Of a DNA stretch of 64,000 nucleotides, positions 1 through 15,944 are shown piece by piece. The position numbers were made by a program, and so were the translations under genes. The notes beneath the pieces were generated by a model. That model was not told the origin of the DNA and ran no database searches. It saw only the letters and a list, made by a program, of their open reading frames with translations. The DNA is from Glaciecola nitratireducens FR1064. GTDB taxonomy: Bacteria; Pseudomonadota; Gammaproteobacteria; Enterobacterales; Alteromonadaceae. Position 1 is the first letter of the stretch. Each line of letters opens with the position of its first letter. The DNA is taken from positions 2,418,001-2,482,000 of the forward strand of contig NC_016041.1 in the NCBI RefSeq assembly GCF_000226565.1. Direction: 5' to 3'.

Positions 1-1807
1 TACCCGTTGCAGAAGTTTCCGCAACGTTTCTTAGTACTTGTTGCAAATCCGTCGCACTGTTTCCCGCACCAATACCAACGTACTGACGGTCTTTATGATC
101 CAGCGCAAATAAGGTCACGTTAGTTCTAAAGTTGTCGTTCCAATCGGCTTTAATACCGGCTTCATATGTATCTACGATTTCAGGATTAACGCCCTCTTCA
201 TTAATTGTCGCTCTTGGGTTAAATGTGCCTGATTTGAAACCTTGCGAGAAGCTAGCAAACAACATCATGTTATCAGCGGCTTGGTACTCTATGCCAAGAC
301 GTGGTGTAAAGCGGGTCCAATTTTCAGTTTTTGGACCATCAAGTACACCGTCACCGTTAGCATCGGCACCTAGTACAGTTGGTACAAGTTGACCGTCAGG
401 TCTAGTATATCCAGGGATCCAATTGGACTGCGGATAAACGTTAGCAAATACGAGTCCGTTGTTAACAATGGCCGTTTTGTCTTCGTCAGTATATCGACCA
501 CCCACGGTCATCGATAAGTCATCGGTCACTTGGAAAGTTGCTTGAGAATAGATAGCCCAGCTTTCAGAATTATTGCAGCCGGTGACTTCTCTCGTTAATC
601 CTGGCGTACCGAACGCTGCACGCCCTAAGAAACCAAGGATCGCGTCAAAGTTACCACAAGACTCACCATCGTATAGATATAGGCCACTGACAACGTTAAA
701 GCGGTCTCCCGTGTAGTTCATTTGCAGCTCGTGTGTGCTGTTGTCATCTGAATACTCAGCGGGCACATCAAATATGTCTAACGCAGTGTTATCAAAATCG
801 ATGTTGGTGGGTGAATAGCTTTCGCGATACGACGCAATATATTTAAGTTCCATTGCATCGCTGTAGTTGTAGCGAAGCATCAAGCTGTACCCTTCCAACT
901 CAACTAAGTTTGATGTGGGTAAGCTAGTATAAGAATCATAAACGCTGTCTGGCACAGGTGCGTTCGTCAATAGGCTTGGAAGAAGGCGATAACCGCCTTT
1001 TGCATTAGACGTATCTCTGGTCTTATCCCAGTTAAATTTAACGAAAAGATCGTCTGACGCTCTAAACTCAACGTCAACGCGCGCTGCCCATAAATCTTTA
1101 TTGTAGTTTTCACGATCTTGGTTAGGCAATGCTGATTGCAAAAACTCACCAAAGCCATCGCGATTCAAATCTGCGAAGCCGAAACCAACATATAGTTTGT
1201 CGTCAATCACAGGTAGTTGACCCGTTAATTTGACATCACGCTGTGCATAGCTACCAACGGTTGCTTCGGCGTTAAATTCTGTACCGCCACTCATTTCTTT
1301 AGTAACGTATTTAATCGCACCACCGATGGTGTTCTTGCCGTATAACGTCCCTTGAGGACCACGTAGTACTTCTATTCTTTCAACGTCGATTAGATCAAGT
1401 ACGGCGCCTTGAGGACGAGCCATGTAGACATCATCAATATAGATACCAACGCCGGGCTCATAGCCCCAAAGAGGATCCTGCTGACCAACACCACGAATGA
1501 ATGCGGTTAGTGTTGAGTTAGTACCACGACTAGTTTGCAATGTTGTATTTGGCGAAAACTGCTGTATTTCAGTGATAACAGAAATACCTTTCTCACTGAG
1601 TTCTTTTGCACCGATAGAGGTAACCGCGATAGGTACTTCCTGCAAGTTCTCTGACTTTTTACGTGCTGTAACTTGGATCCTTTCTAGCTTCCCTTCCCTA
1701 ACTTGCTGCGTTTCTTGTGCTTGAACTTGCGTTCCTATTGTTAAAGCGGCACTCACCGCCAGAGCGCAAAGCGCAAGTTGAGGCGTTTTTTTCATTATAG
1801 TTTTCAT
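1..1807 (-). CDS. TonB-dependent outer-membrane receptor (3' end outside window)
   Basis: The reading frame stays open from an ATG at 1807 to the window edge, giving about 602 residues with the C-terminal barrel strands missing. It starts with a Sec signal peptide (MKTIMKKTPQLALCALAVSA, cleavage near AQA) and a TonB-box-like stretch (ERIQVTARK). A plug domain follows, with IRGVGQQDP, a YIDDVYMARPQGA segment and the hallmark VERIEVLRGPQGTLYGKNT. The rest has barrel-like alternation. Such receptors import large or scarce ligands across the outer membrane using TonB energy. I see no Fur-box-like sequence upstream, so an iron role is not indicated. It is divergent from a putative PHB/3-hydroxybutyrate operon, so a hydroxybutyrate-oligomer ligand is plausible but only inferred. 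The family call is firm; the substrate is not. Confidence 0.93.
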   Translation of the reverse strand, partial: MKTIMKKTPQLALCALAVSAALTIGTQVQAQETQQVREGKLERIQVTARKKSENLQEVPIAVTSIGAKELSEKGISVITEIQQFSPNTTLQTSRGTNSTLTAFIRGVGQQDPLWGYEPGVGIYIDDVYMARPQGAVLDLIDVERIEVLRGPQGTLYGKNTIGGAIKYVTKEMSGGTEFNAEATVGSYAQRDVKLTGQLPVIDDKLYVGFGFADLNRDGFGEFLQSALPNQDRENYNKDLWAARVDVEFRASDDLFVKFNWDKTRDTSNAKGGYRLLPSLLTNAPVPDSVYDSYTSLPTSNLVELEGYSLMLRYNYSDAMELKYIASYRESYSPTNIDFDNTALDIFDVPAEYSDDNSTHELQMNYTGDRFNVVSGLYLYDGESCGNFDAILGFLGRAAFGTPGLTREVTGCNNSESWAIYSQATFQVTDDLSMTVGGRYTDEDKTAIVNNGLVFANVYPQSNWIPGYTRPDGQLVPTVLGADANGDGVLDGPKTENWTRFTPRLGIEYQAADNMMLFASFSQGFKSGTFNPRATINEEGVNPEIVDTYEAGIKADWNDNFRTNVTLFALDHKDRQYVGIGAGNSATDLQQVLRNVAETSATG

Positions 1808-1840
1808 TGTGTCCCCTTAAAGGTATTTCTCTGTGTGTAC

Positions 1841-1865
1841 TTTTAATCTGTAATTTTAATCTGTA
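1841..1865. repeat. Tandem 12-bp repeat upstream of the TonB receptor
   Basis: TTTTAATCTGTA occurs twice (1841-1852 and 1854-1865) with a 13-bp period, 34-58 bp upstream of the receptor start. It could be a repeated operator half-site or chance in AT-rich sequence. Confidence 0.5.
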
Positions 1866-1991
1866 CTTTTACCAGATCATGTTTGTTGAATAGCTTTTTA
1901 CAAACAGCAAAGATGCAATAAGCCTTCTCTAAATATCTTGCTAGCAGTAGCGGTCTATTACTAATCTAGGCCAAAAACCTTCAAAGGTAAC

Positions 1992-2007
1992 TAGTACCAT
2001 CGTACTA
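1992..2007. promoter_or_regulatory. Perfect palindrome in the divergent TonB receptor/GntP intergenic region
   Basis: TAGTAC-CATC-GTACTA is a perfect 6+4+6 inverted repeat, 90 bp upstream of the permease ATG and about 185 bp upstream of the receptor ATG. Its place in a shared divergent promoter region suggests an operator controlling the PHB locus. No regulator gene is adjacent and I cannot name the protein that would bind it. The rest of the gap (1808-2097) holds no gene that I can see. Confidence 0.45.
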
Positions 2008-2097
2008 TGGGCATTAGTTCGCTTATGCAGCACACTTGCGTACTGGTGAAGCAGTCTGCGGTCACAGATTTTTCACTTGGCAATTAGGAAAAAAATA

Positions 2098-3393
2098 ATG
2101 ATAAGTTTAATTGGCTTAGTAGGTGGTTTGGGTCTGCTAATATGGCTAACCATCCGCGGAATGAACCTATTTATAGCGGCTCCTCTATGCGCTTTGATTG
2201 TAGCACTAACCAGCGGATTGCCTGTGTTTGCGGGTGATAGCAACTTTGTCGCAACATACATGTCTGGATTTACTGGCTTTATTGCTTCGTGGTTTTTTAT
2301 GTTCTTACTGGGCGCTTTGTTCGGTAAATTTATGGAAGATACTGGCGCCGCAGACGCGCTGTCAAAATGGATTATTAGTAAAATAGGTTACAAACAAGCT
2401 GTATTTGCCGTGGTAGCTGCCTGCGCGATACTAACCTATGGTGGTGTGAGTGTCTTCGTTGTGGCATTTTCAGTCTACCCAATGGCACTGAGTTTATTTA
2501 AAGATGCCAACCTTCCTCGACGCTTCATACCAGCAACTATGGCTTTTGGCTCGGTTACCTTTACGATGACATCTGCGGGTTCACCAGAAATACAAAACTG
2601 GATCCCGATTAAATATCTTGGAACGAGTCCTTATGCAGCGTGGGAAGTAAGCTTAGTTGTTGCAATATTTATGGCACTGTTCGGCTACTGGTGGCTAAAA
2701 CGCATGGTCGGGAAAGCGGTATTAGCGGGGGAAGTGTTTGAAGCAAAACCAGAAGATCCCGAAATAAAAGAACGCGAGTACCCTCACCCAATTACCGGGT
2801 TCATACCGCTTTTGGTTGTTCTTTTATTATCGTTCTTTTTACACGAATCTCTGGCACAGCTAGCGTTAATAGTTGCTTTAGGAGGCGGTGTACTCACCTT
2901 AATGACCATTAACTTTAAGTATTTTCAAAACTTATCCACAGCAGTAAACTTAGGCACAACGGGCGCACTGCTTGCTATTGGCAACACCGCGGCAGTGGTT
3001 GGCTTTGGTGCCATTGCAAAAACGACGACTGCATTTCAAGACACGGTAGAGGTAATGACCCAAATACCGGGAAATGAATTAATCGGTGCTGCAATTGCCG
3101 TTAGTGTTATCGCAGGCCTTACTGGATCAGCGTCTGGTGGGCAAGCCATCGCTTTGCCGCTAGTAGGACCTCACTACATCGACCAAGGTGTTGATCCAGA
3201 AGAACTTCATCGTATTGTATCTATTTCATCAGGTGCTTTGGATTCTCTGCCGCATAACGGTTATGTTGTCACGACTATTCGTGCAATTTGTCATGAAACG
3301 CATCAACGTGCATATGGACCAATGGCTGCTCTAACGGTTGCTGTGCCGCTGATTGGTTTAATGTTTGCGATTGCACTATTCATCATTTTTTAG
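2098..3393 (+). CDS. GntP-family permease, probable 3-hydroxybutyrate/short-chain hydroxyacid transporter
   Basis: A hydrophobic inner-membrane protein of 431 residues with roughly a dozen membrane segments. Features resembling the GntP/CitM-type transporters include an early GGLGLLIWLTIRG segment, a mid-protein TYGGVSVFVVAFSVYPMA segment and a late GLTGSASGGQAIALPLV segment. I chose ATG 2098 because AGGA at 2087-2090 is well spaced from it; an upstream in-frame TTG at 2077 is less likely. It leads a tightly spaced run with an exported hydrolase, a PHB depolymerase and 3-hydroxybutyrate dehydrogenase. That makes uptake of D-3-hydroxybutyrate or related hydroxyacids the best guess. The substrate is inferred from context only. 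Confidence 0.85.
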   Translation: MISLIGLVGGLGLLIWLTIRGMNLFIAAPLCALIVALTSGLPVFAGDSNFVATYMSGFTGFIASWFFMFLLGALFGKFMEDTGAADALSKWIISKIGYKQAVFAVVAACAILTYGGVSVFVVAFSVYPMALSLFKDANLPRRFIPATMAFGSVTFTMTSAGSPEIQNWIPIKYLGTSPYAAWEVSLVVAIFMALFGYWWLKRMVGKAVLAGEVFEAKPEDPEIKEREYPHPITGFIPLLVVLLLSFFLHESLAQLALIVALGGGVLTLMTINFKYFQNLSTAVNLGTTGALLAIGNTAAVVGFGAIAKTTTAFQDTVEVMTQIPGNELIGAAIAVSVIAGLTGSASGGQAIALPLVGPHYIDQGVDPEELHRIVSISSGALDSLPHNGYVVTTIRAICHETHQRAYGPMAALTVAVPLIGLMFAIALFIIF

Positions 3394-3405
3394 GGATAAC
3401 ACAGA

Positions 3406-4740
3406 ATGCAAAATTCTACATTAATGAGCCAATCAGCTGAAACAGAGGATAAGCGTAAAAGGCTAACTCCGTTGCTTTCAGCGCCGACAGTAATGGCAAT
3501 TTGTCATCGCGTTATGACTAACATAATTAGAAACGCAGCAGTGCTTTGTATGCTGACATTAGCGTTAATATTGCTGTCTATCAGTCATTTCACAATCGCT
3601 GCTCAGAACACGGTGAGTGAATCTCCTTTACTAACGCAAAAACAAGTTCACACTATTGCCGATTTTAAAATGTTCAATGGCCAAAGCGTAAAAGAAGTCA
3701 AATTAGGATGGGAAAGTTACGGTAAGTTAAACGCCGATAAAACAAACGCAATTCTAATCACACACTACTTCACTGGCACCTCTCACGCTGCCGGCAAGTA
3801 TGATCTGAACGATCCTACAAGTGGCTATTGGGATAGTATCATTGGCCCGAATAAAGCGATAGATACCAACAAGTTTTTCGTACTCAGTATGGACAGCTTA
3901 GCGAATTTAAATGTAAAAGATGAGAATGTGATAACCACAGGTCCTGCTAGCATTAATCCTGATACAGGTAAACCATACGGTCTTACCTTTCCTGTTATTA
4001 CTATGCGCGATATGGTCAATACCCAAAAATCACTACTTGATTCACTGGGGATTGAAAAGCTATATGCTGTCGCCGGTCCGTCAATGGGATCAATGCAGGC
4101 AATTGAATGGGCATCGGCCTACCCTGAAAAAGTGGAGCGACTTATATCGGTCATTGGCTCATCATACAGTGATGCGTGGACGACAGCCGCTCTTGAACAG
4201 TGGGCAATCCCGATTAAATTGGATCAACATTGGCAACAAGGCAACTACTATGAAAGCCAGCCACCAACCGAAGGTCTAACAGCTGCACTCATGTTCGTGA
4301 CACAAATTGCACTAACGCCAGAGTATTTCAATCAGGTAGGCGCAGATATAAACCATAACGCTCTTGAGCCTGATCCGCTTCAAGACATTCAGGCGCGTCA
4401 CAGTATTAACGAGTGGTTATATAATAGAGCAAAAGGACGTGCTGAAAAAATGGATGCCAATAGCTTGCTTTATTTGGTCAGAGCTTGCCAACTGTTTATG
4501 GCGGGTCAAAAGCAAGATATAGCAACGGGCCTGCAACAAATTAAAGCTAAAACACTATTTTTACCCGCTACTCAAGACTTATTACTTATGCCATATCATG
4601 CACGCAATACGCACAGCGCTTTAAAAACGCTGAAAAACGACACCCAATACGCAGAAATCCCAGGCCCTCTTGGACATTTAGAAGGCGTATTGGGCGTTCA
4701 AAAGCACAGCTCAACCATCGCTGCATTTTTAGCTAATTAA
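3406..4740 (+). CDS. Exported MetX-fold alpha/beta hydrolase, putative hydroxyalkanoate oligomer esterase
   Basis: The core resembles homoserine O-acetyltransferase (MetX): GWESYGKLNADKTNAILITH, a GYWDSIIGP segment, a nucleophile elbow AGPSMGSMQA (Ser226), Asp391 in PATQDLLLMPYH and His424 in GHLEG. Unlike cytoplasmic MetX it has an N-terminal hydrophobic segment (about residues 42-62, AVLCMLTLALILLSIS) followed by a polar stretch, which points to export or membrane anchoring. The start could be 3406 (AGGGA upstream) or Met37 at 3514, which would give a cleaner signal peptide. It lies 12 bp after the permease and 12 bp before the depolymerase gene. In that context I favour cleavage of 3-hydroxybutyrate oligomers in the periplasm over methionine synthesis. 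The fold is well supported; the reaction is inferred. Confidence 0.8.
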   Translation: MQNSTLMSQSAETEDKRKRLTPLLSAPTVMAICHRVMTNIIRNAAVLCMLTLALILLSISHFTIAAQNTVSESPLLTQKQVHTIADFKMFNGQSVKEVKLGWESYGKLNADKTNAILITHYFTGTSHAAGKYDLNDPTSGYWDSIIGPNKAIDTNKFFVLSMDSLANLNVKDENVITTGPASINPDTGKPYGLTFPVITMRDMVNTQKSLLDSLGIEKLYAVAGPSMGSMQAIEWASAYPEKVERLISVIGSSYSDAWTTAALEQWAIPIKLDQHWQQGNYYESQPPTEGLTAALMFVTQIALTPEYFNQVGADINHNALEPDPLQDIQARHSINEWLYNRAKGRAEKMDANSLLYLVRACQLFMAGQKQDIATGLQQIKAKTLFLPATQDLLLMPYHARNTHSALKTLKNDTQYAEIPGPLGHLEGVLGVQKHSSTIAAFLAN

Positions 4741-4752
4741 CTCGGTGACTAC

Positions 4753-5814
4753 ATGAAAAATTTTACATTGAAACAAGCGTGCTTCATTTCATTAGCTTCT
4801 TTGGTGCTGACCGCATGCGGCAATCCAAGTGCAGCAGATGGCGCAAAAAATAGCGCCCCAGATGGGATAGAAAAACCTCAACAGCCTGTTCTAAGCGTTT
4901 CAGGTCTGTCCTCTGGTGCTTACATGGCAATGCAATTTCACTTAGCTTTCTCCGAAAAAGTCGTCGGGGCAGGACTGATTGCCGGAGGTCCTTATTTTTG
5001 TGCTCAAGGTAGCATTGGCATAGCATTACAAAACTGTGTCGCAAACCCAGACGCGACGATAGATTTAAACGCACTTGCGGCAACCATCGAAGATTATCAG
5101 CAAAGCGGCAAGTTAGCGGAGTCGAAGTATAACCAGAATGACAAAGTTTGGCTGCTGCATGGTACGCTCGACACGCGCATAAATGGAGTGGTTGCAGACC
5201 AGCTAGCGTTGCAAGCTGAGACTTTGTTTGCTCCAGAAAATATAGAATATGTTAACGATCAGGCATTTGCTCATGTGATGCCTACTTTAGAAAGCGGAGG
5301 TTCCTGCGTGGAGTCTGCGTCTCCTTTTATTGGTGATTGCGGTTATGACGCCGCAGGAGAGTTGTTGAAACACATAACACAATTACCAATGCCGAAATCT
5401 ACCAAAAGCATAAAAGCCCTGAGCCAGCAGCTACTTACCTTTAAACAAGGTGATTATGCTGGCGAACATGCTGAAACACTTGGTGAAAGCGCTTACCTTT
5501 TTGTTCCACAGAGCTGCAAAGACAATATAAATTGCGACATTCATATTAGCTTTCATGGCTGTAACCAAAATGCAGAGGCCGTTGGCGATGAGTACGCAAA
5601 AAATGCAGGATTCAACGCATGGGCAGATACCAACAATTTAATTGTGCTTTACCCACAAACTAAGAAGTCCGCTTTCATGCCACTTAATCCTCAAGCATGC
5701 TGGGATTGGTGGGGATATACAGGTGAAAACTACGCAAATAAAGACGGCAAGCAAATACAGGCTGTAATGGCCTTAGTTAATAGCATTCCAACGATTATTT
5801 CGAATACTAAATAG
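4753..5814 (+). CDS. Extracellular poly(3-hydroxybutyrate) depolymerase, lipoprotein
   Basis: A 353-residue protein with a lipoprotein signal peptide (LVLTAC, Cys22). The mature part begins almost at once with the lipase-type elbow VSGLSSGAYMAM (Ser53). Asp140 (LLHGTLDTRI) and His174 (QAFAHVMPT) complete a plausible triad. The HGCNQ oxyanion-type segment lies in the C-terminal half (ISFHGCNQNAEAVGDEYA), and WADTNNLIVLYPQT and CWDWWGYTG follow. This order, with the serine first and HGC late, is that of the circularly permuted single-domain PHB depolymerases typified by the Penicillium funiculosum enzyme. I see no substrate-binding or linker domain. It would cleave PHB to 3-hydroxybutyrate oligomers at the cell surface, feeding the neighbouring oligomer hydrolase, permease and dehydrogenase. 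Confidence 0.85.
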   Translation: MKNFTLKQACFISLASLVLTACGNPSAADGAKNSAPDGIEKPQQPVLSVSGLSSGAYMAMQFHLAFSEKVVGAGLIAGGPYFCAQGSIGIALQNCVANPDATIDLNALAATIEDYQQSGKLAESKYNQNDKVWLLHGTLDTRINGVVADQLALQAETLFAPENIEYVNDQAFAHVMPTLESGGSCVESASPFIGDCGYDAAGELLKHITQLPMPKSTKSIKALSQQLLTFKQGDYAGEHAETLGESAYLFVPQSCKDNINCDIHISFHGCNQNAEAVGDEYAKNAGFNAWADTNNLIVLYPQTKKSAFMPLNPQACWDWWGYTGENYANKDGKQIQAVMALVNSIPTIISNTK

Positions 5815-5843
5815 ACGCTCATTTTGAACAAAAGGAAACAAAC

Positions 5844-6623
5844 ATGTCTGGTACAGCCAAAACTTTAAACGTATTTGTAACAGGTGGTGCAAGTGGCATT
5901 GGCTACGGTATCGGTGAATATCTAGCAAAGCAAGGCCATCACATTGTTATTGCAGACATCAATGAAGAAGCGGCTAAGCAAGCGGCTAAAAAGCTCAATG
6001 ATTTAGGGCTCTCTGCCCAGTCGGTGCAAATTAATGTGTGTGATGCACAGCAAGTGGCTGCATTGCCCGCAGCACTCAGCAACACTCCAATTGATATCCT
6101 TATCAACAATGCGGGCATTCAACATGTCAGCAAGCTCGAAGATTTCCCAGCTGAAAAGTGGCAAATGCTAATTAACGTTATGCTTGTTGGACCCGCATTA
6201 TTAACCCAGGCATTTCTTCCGCACATGCGCGCCCAAAATTTTGGTCGAATTATTAACGTGGGCTCTATCCATTCAGTTATTGCATCACCATTTAAATCCG
6301 CCTATGTAGCGGCAAAGCACGGACTTCTGGGCTTTGCAAAAACCATGGCTTTAGAGACAGGTGATGTGGATGTAACGATTAATACGCTCTGCCCTGCTTA
6401 CGTTAAAACACCTTTGGTTGAGCAACAAATTGCAGCCCAAGCCAAAGAAAATAATATGTCTGAAGAGGACGTAATAAACAAAATAATGCTAGAGCCCATG
6501 CCTAAAAAAGCCTTCATCGAAATAGATGAGTTAGCACAAACAGCAAACTTTTTAATTGGCAGCGCAGCAAAGAACATTACAGGTCAAACGCTAATATTAG
6601 ATGGCGGCTGGACTGCAAGGTAA
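5844..6623 (+). CDS. bdhA: D-3-hydroxybutyrate dehydrogenase (SDR family)
   Basis: A 259-residue classical short-chain dehydrogenase. The NAD site is TGGASGIG (residues 13-20), followed by INNAGIQHV. The catalytic Ser141 lies in NVGSIHSVIASP, and Tyr154/Lys158 form SAYVAAKHG. The NNAGIQHV signature, the ASPFKSAYVAAKHG block and CPAYVKTPLVEQQI match 3-hydroxybutyrate dehydrogenases (EC 1.1.1.30), which oxidise D-3-hydroxybutyrate to acetoacetate in the cytoplasm. A ribosome-binding site (AAAGGAAA) precedes the ATG. It closes the putative PHB operon, 29 bp after the depolymerase gene. The family assignment is strong, and the substrate is strongly supported by the neighbours. Confidence 0.9.
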   Translation: MSGTAKTLNVFVTGGASGIGYGIGEYLAKQGHHIVIADINEEAAKQAAKKLNDLGLSAQSVQINVCDAQQVAALPAALSNTPIDILINNAGIQHVSKLEDFPAEKWQMLINVMLVGPALLTQAFLPHMRAQNFGRIINVGSIHSVIASPFKSAYVAAKHGLLGFAKTMALETGDVDVTINTLCPAYVKTPLVEQQIAAQAKENNMSEEDVINKIMLEPMPKKAFIEIDELAQTANFLIGSAAKNITGQTLILDGGWTAR

Positions 6624-6710: not shown

Positions 6711-7586
6711 ATGGGTTATTCAACCGTTGGCTTGATTGGAAAAACAGACCATGAAGGCAGCCGGGTAAGTCTTAATGCACTTGTTACCGAACTAAAGCAA
6801 AGAAGCTGTACAATTCTGGTAGAAGCTCGCATAAAAGAAGAACTCGATGATCGTTCTTTAGAAGTCTGTGACCTAGAAACCATGGGCGAAAGGGCTGAGT
6901 TAGCAATAGTTGTAGGCGGCGACGGATATATGCTGGGCGCAGCGCGTGTACTTGCAAAATATGACACTGATGTTGTGGGTGTCAATCGTGGTAATTTAGG
7001 GTTTTTAACTGATATTAACCCGGAAGATATTAGCCGCCAAATAGGCCATATATTTGACGGGAACGTGCATCGTGAAGCACGATTCTTATTAGAAGCAAAC
7101 GTATTTAGAAACGATGGACATCAAGATACCAACGCAGCGGTAAATGAAATAGTGCTGCATCATGGTAAAGTTGCTCACATGATGGAATTCGAGCTGTATA
7201 TCGACAACCAGTTCGTTTTCAGTCAGCGTTCAGATGGGCTCATTATCGCCACGCCGACGGGTTCCACAGCGTATTCGCTATCCGGTGGTGGACCAATTCT
7301 GATGCCGAATTTGGACGCCCTCACCCTTGTTCCGATGTTTCCACATACGCTCAGCAGTCGACCTATTGTGGTAGATGCAAACAGTGAGATCACCTTAAAA
7401 ATGTCAAATATTAATACTGACAATCTGCAAGTCAGTTGCGACAGCCACATCATGATGTCACTGATGCCCGGTGACGAAGTCAGAATTCGCAAAAATCCAA
7501 ACAAACTCAACTTGGTTCACCCAGCAGACTACAACTATTTTAATGTACTGCGCACTAAGCTCAATTGGGGCAGTAAACTCTACTGA
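6711..7586 (+). CDS. nadK: NAD kinase
   Basis: A 291-residue cytoplasmic ATP-NAD kinase that makes NADP from NAD, close to the usual length of about 292. The GGDG motif is at residues 69-72, followed by MLGAARVLA, INRGNLGFLTD-like sequence (VNRGNLGFLTDINP), the NE motif in AAVNEIVLHHG, and TPTGSTAYSLSGGGPI. One oddity is that the residue after GGDG is Tyr73, where I recall Asn or Thr in most relatives. It overlaps anmK as TGATG, so the two genes are probably translationally coupled. Upstream 6624-6710 has no obvious terminator, so some read-through from the PHB genes is possible. Confidence 0.95.
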   Translation: MGYSTVGLIGKTDHEGSRVSLNALVTELKQRSCTILVEARIKEELDDRSLEVCDLETMGERAELAIVVGGDGYMLGAARVLAKYDTDVVGVNRGNLGFLTDINPEDISRQIGHIFDGNVHREARFLLEANVFRNDGHQDTNAAVNEIVLHHGKVAHMMEFELYIDNQFVFSQRSDGLIIATPTGSTAYSLSGGGPILMPNLDALTLVPMFPHTLSSRPIVVDANSEITLKMSNINTDNLQVSCDSHIMMSLMPGDEVRIRKNPNKLNLVHPADYNYFNVLRTKLNWGSKLY

Positions 7587-8773
7587 TGCTGCAGCATATT
7601 GAAAAATTACACCGGATAGCAAGCGCTAGCGAACGTCTTATTGTTGGCCTGATGAGCGGTACTTCACTCGATGGTCTTGACATAGCCTTGTGCAAGATAT
7701 CGGGCCACGGAACGTCGACGAACTTACGTTGTGAAAAGTTCACTACGGTAGATTATTCCGAGGCCTTGAAAACTGCAGTTCAGCACGTATTCGCACAACA
7801 AGTCGTATCCTTAGACGCGCTATGTTTGTTAAATGCTCAAATAGGTCAACTACATGGTGAAATGATCAACCAGACATTACTGGACTGGGGAGTAGCCAAT
7901 GAAAGTGTCGATCTGATTGCAAGTCACGGACAAACTATCTATCACCGTCCGTCCTCTTTCCATAAAATGAAAAATCAACCCAATAGCACGCTACAAATTG
8001 GTGATGGCGACCATATAGCCGCGATAACGGGCATAACGACAGTCAGTGACTTTCGTCAAAAACACATTGCTCATGGCGGAGAAGGTGCACCGCTTGCAAT
8101 GTACGGTGACTATTTACTTTTGCGCAGCGAAAAAGAACATAGAATACTGTTGAATATCGGCGGGATAGCCAATATTACCTACCTTCCCCGTAGCGCAACG
8201 TTTGATGAGGTGATATGTTCAGATATAGGCCCTGGCAACACTATCATGGACGCACTTGCTCGATTACACTGTGACTACGACTACGATAAAGACGCCAATA
8301 TTGCTAAACAAGGAAGCATTAATAAAGTATTGCTAAAACGAATGCTGAAACAGTCCTTTATCAATTTGCCTTTGCCTAAAACCACTGGCCCTGAAACGTT
8401 CAACTTAGACTGGTTCAATGCGCAATTAAAAGCAATACATTTGGAAAACCTCAGCGTGCCAGATCAAATGGCTACGTTAAATGCCTTTACTGCTCACGCC
8501 ATTGCTAACACACTCGAACAACTGCCAGAAATATCAACTGTATACGTTAGCGGTGGAGGCGCTCATAATCCTCTCTTACTAGACAATATATCTCACTTGC
8601 TTAAGAGACCGGTATTTTCGACCAATAAATTAGATGTAAACTCAGATGCGAAAGAAGCCATTTTGTTCGCTGTCCTCGCAAACGAATGTGTTGCTGGGGA
8701 TGAACGCGCTTTCTTAAGTGACAATGCTAAGCAGCCCAATGTGAGTATGGGAAAACTGTCCTTCCCGTCATAA
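7586..8773 (+). CDS. anmK: Anhydro-N-acetylmuramic acid kinase
   Basis: A 395-residue cytoplasmic sugar kinase of peptidoglycan recycling. It cleaves and phosphorylates 1,6-anhydro-MurNAc to MurNAc-6-phosphate (EC 2.7.1.170). The signature GLMSGTSLDGLDIALC is near residues 23-38. Further conserved blocks are DLIASHGQTIYH, LQIGDGDHIA, VSDFRQKHIAHGGEGAPL, LLNIGGIANITYLP, DIGPGNTIMDAL and the late YVSGGGAHNPLL. It is a little longer than E. coli AnmK (369). The ATG overlaps the nadK stop by one base. Confidence 0.96.
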   Translation: MLQHIEKLHRIASASERLIVGLMSGTSLDGLDIALCKISGHGTSTNLRCEKFTTVDYSEALKTAVQHVFAQQVVSLDALCLLNAQIGQLHGEMINQTLLDWGVANESVDLIASHGQTIYHRPSSFHKMKNQPNSTLQIGDGDHIAAITGITTVSDFRQKHIAHGGEGAPLAMYGDYLLLRSEKEHRILLNIGGIANITYLPRSATFDEVICSDIGPGNTIMDALARLHCDYDYDKDANIAKQGSINKVLLKRMLKQSFINLPLPKTTGPETFNLDWFNAQLKAIHLENLSVPDQMATLNAFTAHAIANTLEQLPEISTVYVSGGGAHNPLLLDNISHLLKRPVFSTNKLDVNSDAKEAILFAVLANECVAGDERAFLSDNAKQPNVSMGKLSFPS

Positions 8774-10081: not shown

Positions 10082-10498
10082 TTATTTGTTATCAAGACTT
10101 TCAGTATCTGAGTTTTTATTATCATGCTTATTACTTTCATGCTCTGGCGGTAACTGCATCCTCGCAGTCTCAACAAGATGTTGATTTCGGGTACGCTCCA
10201 TGACCTTGACGCGGTGATGCATCGCTACTTTCGCGAGAATATGCGCCGTCACCGGAGCTGTGATCACTAGAAACAGCGTAATTAACAGCTCGTTGATGCT
10301 CAGGCTCCCTCTTGTATGATACATGAATACCATTGAACCGATAAGGAAACAACCAAGCCCTAAGGTTGTCGCTTTCGTAGGAGCGTGTAACCGAACGTAA
10401 AAGTCCTGCAGGCGCAACAGCCCTATCGACCCCACGAGAACAAAGAGGCCGCCTAAAATTAGGAATGCAGATACAATTAGCTCTACTATAAAACTCAT
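10082..10498 (-). CDS. mnhG: Na+/H+ antiporter subunit G
   Basis: A 138-residue inner-membrane subunit of the Mrp/Mnh multisubunit sodium-proton antiporter. It has three membrane helices (ELIVSAFLILGGLFVLVGSI, the GLGCFLIGSMVFM region and ELLITLFLVITAPVTAHILA). The LLRLQDFYVRLHAPTKATTLG segment after helix 1 is the family hallmark. The C-terminal 50 residues are a charged cytoplasmic tail, longer than usual. AGGAGAT lies just upstream of the ATG and next to the mnhF stop. It is the last mnh gene of the operon. Confidence 0.93.
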   Translation of the reverse strand: MSFIVELIVSAFLILGGLFVLVGSIGLLRLQDFYVRLHAPTKATTLGLGCFLIGSMVFMYHTRGSLSINELLITLFLVITAPVTAHILAKVAMHHRVKVMERTRNQHLVETARMQLPPEHESNKHDNKNSDTESLDNK

Positions 10499-10506
10499 AC
10501 TATCTC

Positions 10507-10776
10507 CTACTCAATGATGTCGCCACGCAGCAGATATTTTCCAAACGCAACGCTGCTGACAAATCCCAACATCGCAATTAACAAAGCTGCCTCAAAATAC
10601 AATGGTGTTTGATTGTAAATACCGAACAGTAATATTAGGGCAATACTGTTTATGTACATAGTATCCAGAGCCAAAATACGGTCCACGATATGAGGTCCAA
10701 TGATAAGGCGCCACAAGTTGAGCACGAGCGCAATACTCAGCATAACTGCGACCGCGACTATAGCGATATCTAGCAT
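10507..10776 (-). CDS. mnhF: Na+/H+ antiporter subunit F
   Basis: An 89-residue subunit with three membrane helices and the conserved GPHIVDRILALDTM segment, of the size typical for MrpF/MnhF. Its start overlaps the end of mnhE by 7 bp and its stop lies 8 bp before mnhG, so it is part of a compact operon with coupled translation. Confidence 0.93.
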   Translation of the reverse strand: MLDIAIVAVAVMLSIALVLNLWRLIIGPHIVDRILALDTMYINSIALILLFGIYNQTPLYFEAALLIAMLGFVSSVAFGKYLLRGDIIE

Positions 10777-11270
10777 CCGAAAATCTCCTTAACGCGCGAT
10801 TCGTAGCGCTGTTTAATCAAATCGATGACTTCTTGCTCGTCATCCGGCATGTCTAACACGTGCACATAAAGCCAATGTTGGTCTTTTGATACCTCGGCGC
10901 TCACAGTGCCGGGTGTCATGGTTACAGTGCTAGCGAGCACCGTAATGGGCAAGGCACCACTGAGGTCAAGTGGCACGGCAACTAAACCTGGTTTAATTTT
11001 GTGCATCGGCCCAACAACCAAAAAAGCAACCTCAAAATTGGCCACTACAATGTCTTTAAGAACAATAAATATGTAGGTTAATGCTTTCAAAGGTCGTTTC
11101 ATTTTCGGCTGAGGAACTCGCAATGGCGCGCACAACCAAGGAATAATTATCGCGAGTGCAGTACCAAGAATAAAGTGGCCTAAACTCACCGTTGTATTCA
11201 ACATAAGCCAAACAATTAATAGCATTATGCTGTGCAGGGGCATCGGAAATAAACGTGAAACCAAGCTCAT
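10770..11270 (-). CDS. mnhE: Na+/H+ antiporter subunit E
   Basis: A 166-residue MrpE/MnhE protein. It has N-terminal hydrophobic segments (SIMLLIVWLMLN, GHFILGTALAIIIPWLC) and a helix around LTYIFIVLKDIVVANFEVA. The conserved periplasmic/cytosolic part includes LPITVLASTVTMTPGTVS and LYVHVLDMPD. The ATG overlaps the mnhD stop by 4 bp. In the Mrp complex this subunit is needed for assembly and full activity. Confidence 0.93.
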   Translation of the reverse strand: MSLVSRLFPMPLHSIMLLIVWLMLNTTVSLGHFILGTALAIIIPWLCAPLRVPQPKMKRPLKALTYIFIVLKDIVVANFEVAFLVVGPMHKIKPGLVAVPLDLSGALPITVLASTVTMTPGTVSAEVSKDQHWLYVHVLDMPDDEQEVIDLIKQRYESRVKEIFGC

Positions 11271-12793
11271 TGTGCACCTCCCTCTAAATTCATCACCCTA
11301 ATTAATGACTCAATATCGTGCAGTTGTGCTGCGGCACTGTTGGTATATTCAATAACGCTAGCGCCAAAGAGAGCTAGCAACGGTGAGGCGCCGAGCAATA
11401 AAAACGTTCCAAAAAGCTGCCATTTCGAAACGCCATCTGATTCAGCAACATCATGACTAGGCGTGGAGCGCCAAAACAGTGTTGTGCCAGCTCTTGATAA
11501 CGCAATGATAGTAATTAAACTGGAAAGCAAAATTACTGACCACACCCATACTATTTGGTCTGAGCCCACGGCAGACTGTAAAACAACAAGTTTACCCAAG
11601 AAGCCTGAAAACGGCGGTAAACCGGCTACGGCCATCGCAGCTACGACAAACAATATACCTAATAGTGATTGCTGCTTTATTTTACGTGCGATAACGAAGT
11701 AATCGAGCGCTTTACCGCGCTGCTGACCCAACATATCGGCTATCAAGAACAAAGCGGCCGTCACCAGCGTACTGTGGATTAGGTAATATAAACCTGCAGC
11801 GGTGGCCTCTGGCGTTCTCAACGAGAATGCGATTAATAGTGTACCTACTGATACAATTACGAGATTAGCAGCAAGAGTTCGCAGATTAGGGCTTGCTAGC
11901 GCTCCTACTGTACCCACAACAATGGTAAGTATAGACAGCGGCCAAATCCATGGCTGCACCATATTAGCTAATTCACCTGCCTGCTCGCCAAAAATCACAG
12001 TATAAACACGAAATATGCAATACACACCGACCTTAGTCATTATGGCAAAAAGCGCTGCAACCGGCGCACTGGCGGCCGCATACGTTTTAGGCAGCCAAAA
12101 ATGAAGCGGTAACATAGCAGCCTTCAAACCGAACACAACCAATAACAAAGAACCGCCGGCCTGAACAATAAGCTGATTGCTGGCCGATAACTGTCCGATG
12201 CGCAGAGACATATCTGCTATGTTGAGCGTTCCCGTAATGCCGTAAAGCGTGCCGAGTGCGAACAAAAACAAGCTCGAGCCTATTAAGTTCAAAATCACAT
12301 AGTGTACATTTGCTGCTGTTTTTTGCTTCCCACCACCGTGAATAAGTAGAGTGTAGGATGCGATAAGCAGCACTTCAAAGAAAACAAAGAGATTAAACAA
12401 ATCGTTGGTTACAAATGCGCCATATATACCCAGCAACTGAAACTGAATGAGCGGATGAAAGTATTTACCCTCTCGATCGGTTCCTGCAAAGGAATACAGG
12501 GTAACACCTAGTCCTAAAACAGCAGTCAACGTGACCAGCATTGCGGAAAGTTGATCCACGTATAAAATGATGCCAAAAGGCGGCTTCCAGTCGCCGACCG
12601 CATACATAATCGCGCCGTTTTGAACAACAGTTGCCATCAGAAAAATTGAGCAAACTATTTGTGCCAACATCAAACAAAGTGAGGCGACACGCCTAGATTG
12701 ATATCTCTCAGGGCCGGCAAACGGCGGTAAGAGCATTAAAAGCCCACCAACTAATGGTATCAAAATAGGCAGGATTGCTAAATGAACCGTCAT
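11267..12793 (-). CDS. mnhD: Na+/H+ antiporter subunit D (NuoM/N-like)
   Basis: A 508-residue polytopic membrane protein of the proton-antiporter family related to complex I NuoL/M/N. Key blocks are the YVDQLSAMLVTLTAVLGLGV region, NDLFNLFVFFEVLLIASYTL with the conserved acidic residue in a helix, LKAAMLPLHFWLPKTYAAA with a conserved Lys, and AVAGLPPFSGFLGKLVVL. It overlaps mnhC at its start and mnhE at its end. It is thought to form one of the ion-translocating modules of the complex. Confidence 0.95.
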   Translation of the reverse strand: MTVHLAILPILIPLVGGLLMLLPPFAGPERYQSRRVASLCLMLAQIVCSIFLMATVVQNGAIMYAVGDWKPPFGIILYVDQLSAMLVTLTAVLGLGVTLYSFAGTDREGKYFHPLIQFQLLGIYGAFVTNDLFNLFVFFEVLLIASYTLLIHGGGKQKTAANVHYVILNLIGSSLFLFALGTLYGITGTLNIADMSLRIGQLSASNQLIVQAGGSLLLVVFGLKAAMLPLHFWLPKTYAAASAPVAALFAIMTKVGVYCIFRVYTVIFGEQAGELANMVQPWIWPLSILTIVVGTVGALASPNLRTLAANLVIVSVGTLLIAFSLRTPEATAAGLYYLIHSTLVTAALFLIADMLGQQRGKALDYFVIARKIKQQSLLGILFVVAAMAVAGLPPFSGFLGKLVVLQSAVGSDQIVWVWSVILLSSLITIIALSRAGTTLFWRSTPSHDVAESDGVSKWQLFGTFLLLGASPLLALFGASVIEYTNSAAAQLHDIESLIRVMNLEGGAQ

Positions 12794-13155
12794 ATTTTAT
12801 CCTTCGTCGGTGTTACTAACTTATCAGCATCAGGCGGCTCTCTGCCGTCCACAAAGTCATTCCCTAGGTCAGCGCGAGCGCGCATAGCCAAAATAACGAC
12901 AAATGCAATCATTGCGAAACCAATTACAATGGCCGTCAAGGTCAACGCTTGCGGAAGCGGGTCTGCATAGGAATCAGACATACCCAAAATAGCAGCCCCA
13001 TCGAGATTCAGACGACCGCTTGAAAACAGAAATAGATTCACAGCATATGAAAGCAATGTTAAGCCAATCACGACAGAGAAAGTACGTCCGCGCAAACATA
13101 AAAACACGCCACAAAACGTTAATACACCGACACAAATTACGTATAAAGTTTCCAT
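12790..13155 (-). CDS. mnhC: Na+/H+ antiporter subunit C (NuoK-like)
   Basis: A 121-residue protein with three membrane helices, related to complex I NuoK. It includes GLTLLSYAVNLFLFSSGRL, the DPLPQALTLTAIVIGFAM segment typical of MrpC, and a charged C-terminus. It overlaps mnhA by one base (TAATG type) and mnhD by 4 bp. Confidence 0.95.
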   Translation of the reverse strand: METLYVICVGVLTFCGVFLCLRGRTFSVVIGLTLLSYAVNLFLFSSGRLNLDGAAILGMSDSYADPLPQALTLTAIVIGFAMIAFVVILAMRARADLGNDFVDGREPPDADKLVTPTKDKI

Positions 13156-15944
13156 TATTCCTCCGAAGTCGGGCGATGAACAGAAGTGAGCTTGCCCAAG
13201 TTCGCCAATATGAGTAACGTAGCGCCTACCACAGTTAAGTAAACGCCCAAGTCAAATATCAAAGCGCTTGCAAGCTCAATTTCACCTATGAATGGGATAT
13301 CAAAATAGTCGAACCAAGTTGTCATAAATGGCCGGTCGAAAAACCAACTGCCTATGCCCGTGAGAGTAGCGATGAGTACTCCTAAAGCGATTAGTATTTG
13401 ATAGTCAACTTTTATACGAGGCTTGACCCAATCGACACCGTGCGCGATGTATTGCTGAATTAACGCAACAGAGGTAATTAAGCCAGCAATAAAACCGCCC
13501 CCCGGCATATTATGACCGCGCAGGAAGATATAAAAAGACACTAAGAGCGCAAGAGGCAACAGACTCTGTGAAATCATAGTTAAAATAGGAGGATGACGAT
13601 CTTCCGACCACGGCAAACCATTTTCGTTTGCCGTCGGCATCGCCAAGCGAATACGTGCCAGTAATTTAAAAATACCGAGCGCTGCAATGCCCAAAACAAG
13701 AATTTCACCCAGCGTATCTAGCCCTCGAAAATCTACTAGAATAACGTTTACGGCGTTAGTGCCACCACCTCCTGTTTTACTATTTTCCAAGAAAAACTCG
13801 GAAATAGTATCCAAGGGCTGAGTAATGAAGGCATAGTTTATAGTGGCAACCAGACCGCCTAGAGCTGCCGCGATACTAACGTCTCTCACCACTCGCGAAG
13901 GTGCTGATTCAGAGGGTGTTTTTTGCGGTAAAAAATACAGCGCTAGCATTAGCAAAATCACTGTTACTACCTCTACAGCCAACTGCGTCAACGCTAGATC
14001 CGGTGCAGAAAAGCGAGCAAATGCGATAGACACAATAAGTCCAACTACCGACAGAGTGATAAGTGCAACCATACGTTTACGATGATATATAACAGTAGCT
14101 ATGGCGCTTAAACACAAAATAATGGCCGCAATAATTTCTACGCCACCTACTGCTTGATCAGGAAAATGCGTTTTAGCTGTGTCGAGATTGATCAGCGGAA
14201 GTGCAGTAACCGCAATAGCAAAAAACAGCAGCGCAGCAATATAGCGCTGTAATGAACCATTCCCCAAGCCATCGTGTGCCCTAGTTGCATAGCCTACAAG
14301 AGTTTGGATTACGCCTTCAAAAACGCGTTTTTCATCTGATTCTTTGAATTGCGCTTGAAAACGATATAGGTGACTGCGATATGCATATACCAACAACCCA
14401 CCACCAATAGCAACAGCACTCATTAGTAAAGGTAAGTTAAAGCCATGCCATATCGAAAGACTATAATCGGGAAGCTCACCTATTAAAACGGACGATGCCG
14501 CAGCATCCAATAAGCCACCAATGATGTAGTTAGGAAATATTCCCACCAATAAACACAACGCCACCAATATTTCGATAGGTATTTTCATATACCTTGGCGG
14601 CTCATGAGGCGTTTTCGGTAATCCTTTTGGTTCACCATTAAAAAATACATCGTGTATAAATCGCAAAGAGTAAGCAACAGCAAACACACTTGCTACTGTA
14701 GCTAATACCGGAGTCATCCAAGAAAGAAACCCTAAGGCAGACGAATGGAGTGTTTCAGCTAAGAACATTTCTTTAGATAAAAACCCATTAAACAGAGGTA
14801 CGCCCGCCATTGATGCAGCCGCCACCATTGCAAGCGTCGCTGTGTAGGGCATAAAACGCCATAAACCACCGAGTTTACGCATATCTCGCGTACCTGATTC
14901 ATGGTCAATAATTCCTGCGGCCATGAATAGCGATGCTTTAAATACAGCGTGATTCATAATATGAAATAGAGCTGCTACAGCAGCCAGTTTTGTGTCTAGC
15001 CCTAAAAGCAGGGTAATCAGGCCTAAGTGGCTTATAGTGGAATAAGCAAGCAGTCCTTTAAGATCATGCTTGAATAGGGCCGTGTAGGCACCTAAAAGTA
15101 AGGTTATCAATCCTGTCATACTGACAATCAAAAACCACATTTCAGTGCCCGATAGCACTGGATACATGCGTGCCAGCAAGAAAATCCCGGCTTTAACCAT
15201 CGTGGCAGAATGCAAATAGGCACTAACCGGCGTTGGTGCTGCCATGGCGTGCGGGAGCCAGAAGTGAAATGGAAATTGAGCCGACTTAGTAAAAGCACCC
15301 AGCAATACCAAAATCAAGGCAACGGGATAAAGAGCGTGCTCTCTAATTAAATCGCCACTTGCGAGTATTGTGCTTAACTCATAACTGCCAACCATATCAG
15401 CTATAAGCAATAAGCCAGCGAGCAACGCAAGCCCGCCAGCGCCTGTCACTGTTAGCGCCATTCTCGCACCCTTGCGCGATTCAGACTTTGTAGACCAGAA
15501 ACTAATCAGTAAGAAGGAACTAATGCTGGTAACTTCCCAAGCCATCCACATTTGCAGTACGTTGTTTGACAGCACGATGGATAACATGGCCGTCATGAAC
15601 AAAATTAAGTAAGAGAAAAAACGCCCGACAGCTTCCTTTTCAGAAAGATAATAGCGCGCATACACAATGATCAGAATGCCTATACCGAGGATTAACAAAG
15701 CAAACATCAACGCAAGCCCATCAAGTCTCATCGACAAAGTCAGCCCGATAGAAGGTATCCATTCTAAATATTCGGTGACAATTTCACCTGCCAAGACAGC
15801 CGGAATTAAACTGACTATGTAAGCTAGGGCAATTGCAGGAGCCAGCATGGTGAAAATAGTATTGAGGGTGCGTCCAAATCGTTCGGTAACTAGCGGTATT
15901 ACCACACCAATCAATAAAATTGCTGTTATCCAAAATAAGCTCAT
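13155..15944 (-). CDS. mnhA: Na+/H+ antiporter subunit A/B fusion
   Basis: At 929 residues this is a fusion of MrpA and MrpB, the arrangement of the six-gene (group 2) Mrp operons. The N-terminal half is NuoL-like: [57 protein letters not shown] and [17 protein letters not shown]. The middle carries the MrpA C-terminal part ([20 protein letters not shown]). The last 150 residues are the MrpB domain ([20 protein letters not shown]). AAGGAAAC precedes the ATG. It is first in a six-gene operon exporting Na+ in exchange for H+, giving salt and alkali tolerance. Confidence 0.95.

Follow-up and report, generated by a model that had tools for sequence, protein, structure and literature searches.

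The window, a stretch of 64,000 nucleotides from the single-contig, 4.13 Mb genome of Glaciecola nitratireducens FR1064 (G000:C1:2418001-2482000), begins within a candidate locus for the use of polyhydroxybutyrate (PHB). Its left edge cuts the minus-strand gene of a TonB-dependent receptor. Four plus-strand genes diverge from it, encoding a permease, an exported esterase, a PHB depolymerase and a 3-hydroxybutyrate dehydrogenase (Table 1). Open reading frame (ORF) and family searches agree with a preliminary description of this DNA on the arrangement, and the gaps of 12-30 bp given there between the four genes were measured as 12, 12 and 29 bases. With the flank included, the receptor gene occupies L002:11516-13807 (G000:C1:2417516-2419807) and encodes 763 amino acids (aa). 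Genes of a response regulator and a hybrid kinase lie to the left of the window, as does an enoyl-CoA hydratase gene on the receptor's strand. Neither the regulator pair nor the candidate operator figures in the preliminary description. On sequence evidence, this is likely to be a regulated locus for the utilisation of a polyester, PHB, along with its oligomers, in which the receptor would import 3-hydroxybutyrate oligomers.

Table 1. Features of the candidate PHB locus of G. nitratireducens FR1064. Positions are those of the window unless L002 is given.
Feature	Position	Strand	Remarks
TonB-dependent receptor, N-terminal 602 of 763 aa	1..1807	-	gene extends left beyond the window
Palindrome TAGTACCATCGTACTA, candidate operator, ACTU-like	1992..2007		divergent promoter; regulator nearby is CrbR/ErdR-like
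GntP-like inner-membrane permease	2098..3393	+	ATG at 2098 is the more likely start; in-frame TTG at 2077
Exported E22 family MetX-like esterase	3406..4740	+	NF005262, 590.7 bits; PDB 5jkf, 508 bits
Type-2 short-chain-length PHA depolymerase, single domain, lipoprotein here	4753..5814	+	NF050059, 348.7 bits; PDB 2d80/2d81
3-hydroxybutyrate dehydrogenase	5844..6623	+	TIGR01963, 334.3 bits; PDB 3v2h, 1wmb
CrbR/ErdR-like LuxR-type response regulator	L002:10654-11295	-	left of the window, receptor's strand
Hybrid kinase, 1136 aa, symporter-like N-terminus	L002:4572-7982	+	left of the window, strand opposite to the receptor

The complete receptor contains a plug (PF07715, 64.1 bits, residues 55-164) and a barrel (PF00593, 134.9 bits); the part within the window scores 63.5 and 92.7 bits, respectively. 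No match to the N-terminal STN signalling domain was observed up to E 1, and the possibility of a surface signal transducer of the FpvA type was rejected on this ground. The plug is intact, with many invariant columns across seven diverse receptors, and there is a TonB-box-like segment, IEVTA. The permease can be assigned only to the broad Pfam family GntP_permease (PF02447, 36.3 bits, cut-off 22.5), as it is below the cut-off of the gluconate:H+ symporters TIGR00791 (37.6 against 292.75 bits). GntP-type permeases of 3-hydroxybutyrate are known from pseudomonads. The exported esterase exceeds the cut-off of the E22 MetX-like family (450 bits); the possibility that it is the homoserine O-acetyltransferase MetX was rejected, since it scores 249.9 bits with TIGR01392, whose cut-off is 500. 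Its catalytic triad, S226/D391/H424 as assigned by motif, is unchanged in 100 of 100 sequences. A literature search of open-access papers, with most subscription papers outside its reach, gave no paper on this esterase.

The depolymerase is above the cut-off (280 bits) of the type-2 short-chain-length polyhydroxyalkanoate (scl-PHA) depolymerases. Its best solved relative is the PHB depolymerase of Penicillium funiculosum (2d80). Residues Ser53, Asp140 and His174 align with this enzyme, and no change in them was seen among the aligned sequences (86 of 86); Asp140 and His174 we take to be catalytic, as in the P. funiculosum enzyme. The family match covers residues 47-344 of a protein of 353 aa, which leaves no space for a linker and a C-terminal substrate-binding domain. 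Thus it is not a canonical multidomain extracellular PHB depolymerase. The preliminary description called it a lipoprotein. A lipobox is indeed present in the window's protein, but a regular expression finds one in 7 of 77 distinct homologues only, and the lipoprotein anchor was therefore dropped as a defining trait of the system. The dehydrogenase is above the cut-off of its family (307.05 bits).

We analysed the association of the receptor with the depolymerase in 246 related genomes of Alteromonadaceae in the wide sense (including Alteromonas, Thalassotalea, Pseudoalteromonas and Rheinheimera). The type-2 depolymerase has a strong match in 91 genomes and a weak match in four more. A receptor of at least 57% identity lies within 12 kb of the depolymerase in 66 of these 91 genomes, in 65 cases on the opposite strand; 21 of the near pairs, among them that of the window, were mapped at the level of single genes and the remainder by coordinates, and 20 of the 25 genomes without a near receptor were mapped as well. 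By simple arithmetic (a span of 24 kb in a genome of about 4.4 Mb), about 0.5 of the 91 would be expected by chance. A second group of enzymes, the type-1 depolymerases, behaves similarly: 41 of the 43 strongest matches in the family (at least 195 bits, leaving out G108 with 182 bits) adjoin this receptor. Thus one receptor pairs with two depolymerase families. The preliminary description had named a conserved association across genomes as one point on which its reading would stand or fall, and the association holds for both families.

Type-1 matches of 150-191 bits, G108 apart, are mostly longer open frames distant from the receptor. Such longer frames (about 580-830 aa; for example, G244:C16:368124-368918) occur in many genomes, and in G033, G003 and G222 a domain of this kind is found within about 3-10 kb of the receptor. 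Counted per genome, the receptor accompanies a recognised depolymerase in 135 of 142 cases and is found in 34 of the 104 genomes without one, the genomes being related and thus not independent evidence; 37 receptors below 57% identity or without a listed match enter these counts at E <=1e-150. A depolymerase is found within 12 kb of 108 of the 126 receptors with at least 57% identity. This count combines 66 near pairs located by coordinates with 42 of the 60 mapped loci; five far receptors and the unmapped G200 are left out.

The proximity might be fortuitous, or a product of hitch-hiking with the housekeeping genes of the dnaK-dnaJ-nadK region, and the label grpE is indeed found within 12 kb in 11 of the 21 mapped type-2 loci, and nadK in 12. 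This explanation can practically be discounted, as the association persists in other contexts and with exchanged enzymes, and the number of near pairs rejects chance.

The remaining receptor loci of the family sample comprise four with a weak type-2 match and 57 without any; 60 of these 61 were mapped, with G200 left out. Genes were called as longest ORFs by a simple caller and labelled by the best phmmer match, so that the ligase and dehydrogenase labels depend on the threshold; representatives were checked against NCBIfam. None of the 60 loci is devoid of partner enzymes. A type-1 depolymerase gene is found within 12 kb in 42 loci, mostly directly before the receptor gene and in the same direction. 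These 42 loci also contain genes for a major facilitator superfamily (MFS) transporter (31 loci), an HSL-type esterase without a signal peptide (31), a dehydrogenase of the kind seen in type-1 loci (21), and scoA (6). In 14 loci the permease is retained, together with the E22 esterase in 13, the dehydrogenase in 11 and both subunits of the CoA-transferase (scoAB) in seven. Four more loci combine the permease, an acyl-CoA ligase and the E22 esterase, and have no dehydrogenase. Thus permease-bearing loci without a depolymerase total 18, with the E22 esterase in 17. Other receptor loci, mostly 47-52% identical, contain an acyl-CoA ligase and no dehydrogenase label in eight of 14 cases.

The type-1 and type-2 depolymerases are distant relatives with parts in a different order. 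The type-1 model aligns to the C-terminal end of the type-2 protein, the start of the type-2 model aligns to the middle of type-1 proteins, and the catalytic serine is residue 53 in type-2 and 143 in type-1. This serine is invariant in 51 of 51 type-1 depolymerases, as is that of the HSL esterases in 38 of 38. Hydrophobic N-termini were observed in 75 of 77 type-2 depolymerases, 51 of 51 type-1 depolymerases, 95 of 100 E22 esterases, and three of 38 HSL esterases.

On the receptor tree (101 sequences, FastTree), the architecture label changes at least 15 times; the starred branches force five changes for the type-1 label and six for type-2. The receptor and the regulator are constant, while the enzyme sets are repeatedly exchanged. 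The chemistry of PHB breakdown is common to both sets, and the ligand is therefore likely to be a PHB product.

A scan of named genomes with the alignment of seven receptors gave a similar picture. It used the best 80 of 583 relatives, partly the same genomes as in the family sample, so that the two sets are not independent. Among these 80 loci, 39 are of type 2, 17 of type 1, 22 contain the permease and the E22 esterase, and one the ligase; the remaining locus is at a contig end and has only dehydrogenase, MFS and esterase labels. They belong to Alteromonas, Paraglaciecola, Glaciecola, Salinimonas, Bowmanella, Aliiglaciecola, Thalassotalea, Colwellia, Pseudoalteromonas, Psychrosphaera, Pseudidiomarina, Rheinheimera, Arsukibacterium, Alkalimonas, Shewanella, Pleionea, and others. 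In a sample of the class (369 genomes), the receptor was found at E 1e-150 in four genomes, two of them outside the family, and type-2 depolymerases in 14 genomes, 12 of them outside. As far as these samples show, this is a system of the Alteromonas group.

In 80 of 81 family loci and 75 of the best 80 named loci, the gene immediately after that of the receptor, on the same strand, is that of the regulator. The kinase gene lies within the stretch in 61 family and 62 named loci. The best family of the regulator is ErdR/CrbR (NF041830) at 214 bits, below the cut-off of 390; this is the best of 23 matches in the genome. The kinase has PAS_7, HisKA, HATPase and receiver domains. Its N-terminus (residues 44-440) matches the sodium:solute symporter family (SSF, PF00474) with 20.9 bits, just under the cut-off of 22.8. 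This kinase and regulator, found repeatedly with the receptor, may represent a subgroup of such systems that is not concerned with acetate control.

The divergent promoter of the window contains a palindrome of the form TAGTAC-N4-GTACTA. The pattern, scored as TASTAC-N4-GTASTA, was set from this promoter and PMC5715377 before other loci were scored. Of 154 distinct promoters upstream of the receptor, 139 match at 10 or more of the 12 positions. The control consisted of 1788 promoters of other genes from the same stretches, without those of the permease, which have the site in common with the receptor; 88 of them match. At 11 or more positions the counts are 88 of 154 and 19 of 1788. The 19 control matches correspond to 12 places, all of them in front of labelled genes of type-1 loci: kinase/MFS in five cases (from few genera), dehydrogenase in three, ligase-dehydrogenase in two, and depolymerase and HSL esterase in one each. 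All classes of loci have the palindrome at 10 or more positions: 54 of 58 promoters of type 2, 44 of 50 of type 1, 30 of 33 with the permease and E22 esterase, and 11 of 13 with the ligase. In a count with mononucleotide shuffling, 55 of 62 promoters match, with 2.8 expected. An exact match to TASTACNNNNGTASTA occurs at one place in the 4.13 Mb genome, the divergent promoter of the window.

The CrbR-dependent acs site of P. fluorescens, TACTACCATCGTCGAAT, has the 9-mer TACCATCGT in common with the site of the window (Table 4 of PMC5715377). Given this shared 9-mer and the conservation of the palindrome, the adjacent regulator probably acts at this candidate operator. The CrbS/R (MxtR/ErdR) acetate system (PMC5715377) is alike in having a symporter-like hybrid kinase, a LuxR-type regulator and a palindrome. 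It differs in that the proteins considered here fall below the cut-offs of the respective families, as given above, and in that the right arm of the published ACTU site, an inverted repeat required for activation by CrbR, is GTCGAAT instead of GTACTA, the core being common. Moreover, the regulator pair is encoded here beside the PHB locus.

An instructive case is G005, where the depolymerase, E22 esterase and permease genes face the regulator with the palindrome between them and without the receptor. The receptor is 664 kb from the depolymerase, beside an operon of an acyl-CoA ligase and a 3-hydroxybutyrate dehydrogenase (324 bits, cut-off 307), and this operon is preceded by a palindrome. Small exported ORFs with the motif Y(S/T)YHLKPPL, by eye similar to solute-binding proteins, were observed near kinase or regulator genes (L042:416-1156, L046:7076-7585, L081:6791-7549). 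In G168, a second, diverged family receptor (L117:1929-4265, 877 bits, on a long branch) is located beyond the kinase gene, on its far side.

The following mechanism may be suggested. PHB would be cut by the depolymerase, either secreted or located at the cell surface, as the family and intact catalytic residues of this enzyme suggest. Judging by gene context, the receptor would import the resulting 3-hydroxybutyrate oligomers across the outer membrane at the expense of TonB-transmitted energy. The E22 esterase, given its family and its exported N-terminus, could then complete the hydrolysis to the monomer in the periplasm, and the GntP-like permease may carry the monomer over the inner membrane. 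The dehydrogenase, by family membership, is predicted to oxidise 3-hydroxybutyrate to acetoacetate. The preliminary description regarded the locus as a complete route from the polymer to acetoacetate. This is supported overall, with the correction that the activation of acetoacetate is not part of the window's locus, as the sole scoA-type match in this genome is about 260 kb away; the CoA-transferase encoded there presumably activates acetoacetate. In some other genomes a CoA-transferase gene lies within 12 kb of the receptor. The genome also contains two PHA synthase matches elsewhere, and the type-2 depolymerase of the locus is its single one.

In the type-1 variant, the partners of the same receptor would be a type-1 depolymerase that is secreted, an MFS transporter and an esterase lacking a signal peptide. 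The absence of the signal peptide fits import of oligomers into the cytoplasm ahead of final hydrolysis. The hybrid kinase and the CrbR/ErdR-like regulator could control both divergent promoters via the palindrome, as suggested by its conservation. We lean, with some reserve, towards a family of loci built around a dedicated TonB receptor for oligo(3-hydroxybutyrate) with its own regulon of the symporter-kinase/CrbR type. Its enzyme sets would be swapped, the last hydrolytic step being periplasmic with the type-2 depolymerase and cytoplasmic with type-1, and its depolymerase-less variants would live on oligomers that other cells release.

The ligand is probably an oligomer or a related hydroxyacid ester and not the polymer, since 34 of the 169 genomes with the receptor lack a recognised depolymerase. 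Their hosts may live on oligomers that other organisms release; alternatively, and above all for the ligase variant, the receptor may serve hydroxyacid esters more broadly. In its strong form the latter would mean that the locus handles diverse hydroxyacid esters and oligomers, with PHB as one source and another ester as the true ligand. The same 34 genomes could be cited for it, along with the 18 of 60 mapped loci without a nearby depolymerase and the acyl-CoA ligase without a dehydrogenase label in four of these 18 and in eight of the 14 other loci. We consider it improbable, as 108 of the 126 closer receptors have a depolymerase within 12 kb, and as the dehydrogenase and scoAB recur, which fits 3-hydroxybutyrate and acetoacetate.

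Another possibility is that the locus is indeed one for PHB use, with the receptor merely co-regulated and carrying a different ligand, such as a metal chelate, vitamin or cofactor needed under the same conditions. TonB receptors often carry iron, and by sequence the solved relatives of this receptor are mostly siderophore, haem, B12 and bacteriocin receptors. However, the matches to solved structures are weak (72 bits at best), the STN domain is absent, and no iron transport was seen among the labelled recurring neighbours, unlabelled ORFs being left unannotated. Given also that two enzyme sets of PHB-breakdown chemistry recur beside the same receptor, this explanation seems unlikely.

Finally, oligomers of a few units could enter via porins, with the receptor serving as a surface binder or dock for the polymer or the enzyme. 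Depolymerases release mainly short products, and as the enzyme of the window has no substrate-binding domain, something else might hold the polymer. However, a dock agrees poorly with an intact plug rich in invariant columns in all seven receptors and a TonB-box-like segment, or with the retention of the receptor in loci without a depolymerase, and we regard it as very unlikely.

Several observations weigh against import of PHB oligomers by the receptor as part of a PHB regulon. Small oligomers might cross porins without TonB. Of the 169 receptor genomes, the 34 mentioned above lack a recognised depolymerase, and the ligase variant without a dehydrogenase suggests that the ligand may differ there. 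Conversely, 25 of the 91 type-2 genomes have no near receptor. In five of them it is far away or on another contig, and in 20 there is none of at least 57% identity among the matches listed. A family receptor exists somewhere in 23 of the 25, namely these five and 18 of the 20 (E <1e-170); the four of these 18 that are among the matches listed show 49-51% identity. In G118, one of the two type-2 genomes without any family receptor, the contig starts at the permease. The longer-frame type-1 domains, mostly away from the receptor, indicate that attack on the polymer need not depend on the locus. Beside the two receptors from outside the family (47-48% identity) there are an acyl-CoA ligase and dehydrogenase-like matches that are weak (75 and 56 bits); these loci have no depolymerase, permease or E22 label. 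The receptor was found in none of 13 type-2 stretches from 12 genomes outside the family, apart from one 23-bit match at a stretch end, although the depolymerase itself was not recovered by the ORF caller in three of the 13. The receptor profile is narrow, and thus other kinds of TonB receptors may be present near these genes.

On the regulatory side, the palindrome with one mismatch occurs at 11 more places in the genome, that is, 12 in total versus 70 for the backwards control. There is no enrichment, and single weak sites mean little. A scan of the divergent promoter for sigma-70 signals gave two, with a shuffle mean of 1.1, and none stands out. The displaced receptor of G005 has no palindrome of its own, which is mildly at odds with strict co-control. 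With all this taken into account, import of 3-hydroxybutyrate oligomers within a PHB locus is still the reading that we prefer.

Some other arrangements were observed. In G241, a type-2 depolymerase gene directly precedes that of a distant GntP-like permease (217 bits; L085:9552-11958) without the receptor, and the ligase-type receptor locus of this genome (L141) is about 90 kb from that depolymerase. Stretches L086, L087 and L091, with solitary type-2 depolymerases, contain ORFs of 877-885 aa matching the receptor profile at 14-15 bits, perhaps another kind of TonB receptor. In the window, the operon is followed by genes of NAD kinase and an anhydro-N-acetylmuramic acid kinase-like protein (6711-8773, the latter named by eye). 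Further on, a minus-strand block of ORFs for membrane proteins (10082-15944) resembles by eye an Mrp-type Na+/H+ antiporter operon.

TonB receptors are known components of loci for polymer use, namely the carbohydrate utilisation (CUT) loci and the polysaccharide utilisation loci (PULs) of Bacteroidota. As in these, a receptor, an exported depolymerase, an oligomer hydrolase, an inner-membrane permease, a catabolic enzyme and a regulator are encoded in one locus. The differences are the polyester substrate and the regulation by a CrbR/ErdR-like protein with a symporter-like hybrid kinase; moreover, no spare ORF of the locus could be SusD, and thus the SusC/SusD pair of the PULs was not observed. 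The depolymerase shares with that of P. funiculosum (PDB 2d80, 2d81) and with the NCBIfam type-2 extracellular scl-PHA depolymerases the family, the Ser/Asp/His triad and the lack of a substrate-binding domain. Unlike the P. funiculosum enzyme, it is bacterial, is encoded in a row with the permease, E22 esterase and dehydrogenase, and is a lipoprotein in close relatives. The TonB receptor DdvT reportedly serves a lignin dimer. In a rubber degrader, TonB receptors are discussed for the import of oligoisoprene (PMC5979037). Both are, like the receptor considered here, described as TonB receptors for breakdown products of a non-sugar polymer; the polymers and loci are different, and the likeness is one of description.

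In a search of titles and beginnings of abstracts of the open-access literature, with most subscription papers outside its reach, we encountered neither TonB-dependent uptake of PHB oligomers nor a polyester-use locus with its own regulon and two depolymerase families around one receptor. What would be new here is the polyester version of a TonB locus for polymer use, its own regulon, and the swapping of two depolymerase families around one receptor.

PHB is both a natural storage polymer and a commercial bioplastic. To our knowledge, the passage of its breakdown products across the outer membrane has so far been left to porins. If the proposed role of the receptor is true, an energy-driven step would make PHB use a process of captured substrate, akin to the use of polysaccharides. 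The recurring group of CrbR-like regulators would then have a suggested role outside acetate use, and the use of PHB in metagenomes and plastic biofilms could be tracked by means of the receptor gene and the operator. The locus is accessible in culturable species of Alteromonas, Paraglaciecola, Colwellia and Pseudoalteromonas. It would also bear on the question of who profits from extracellular depolymerases in the sea.

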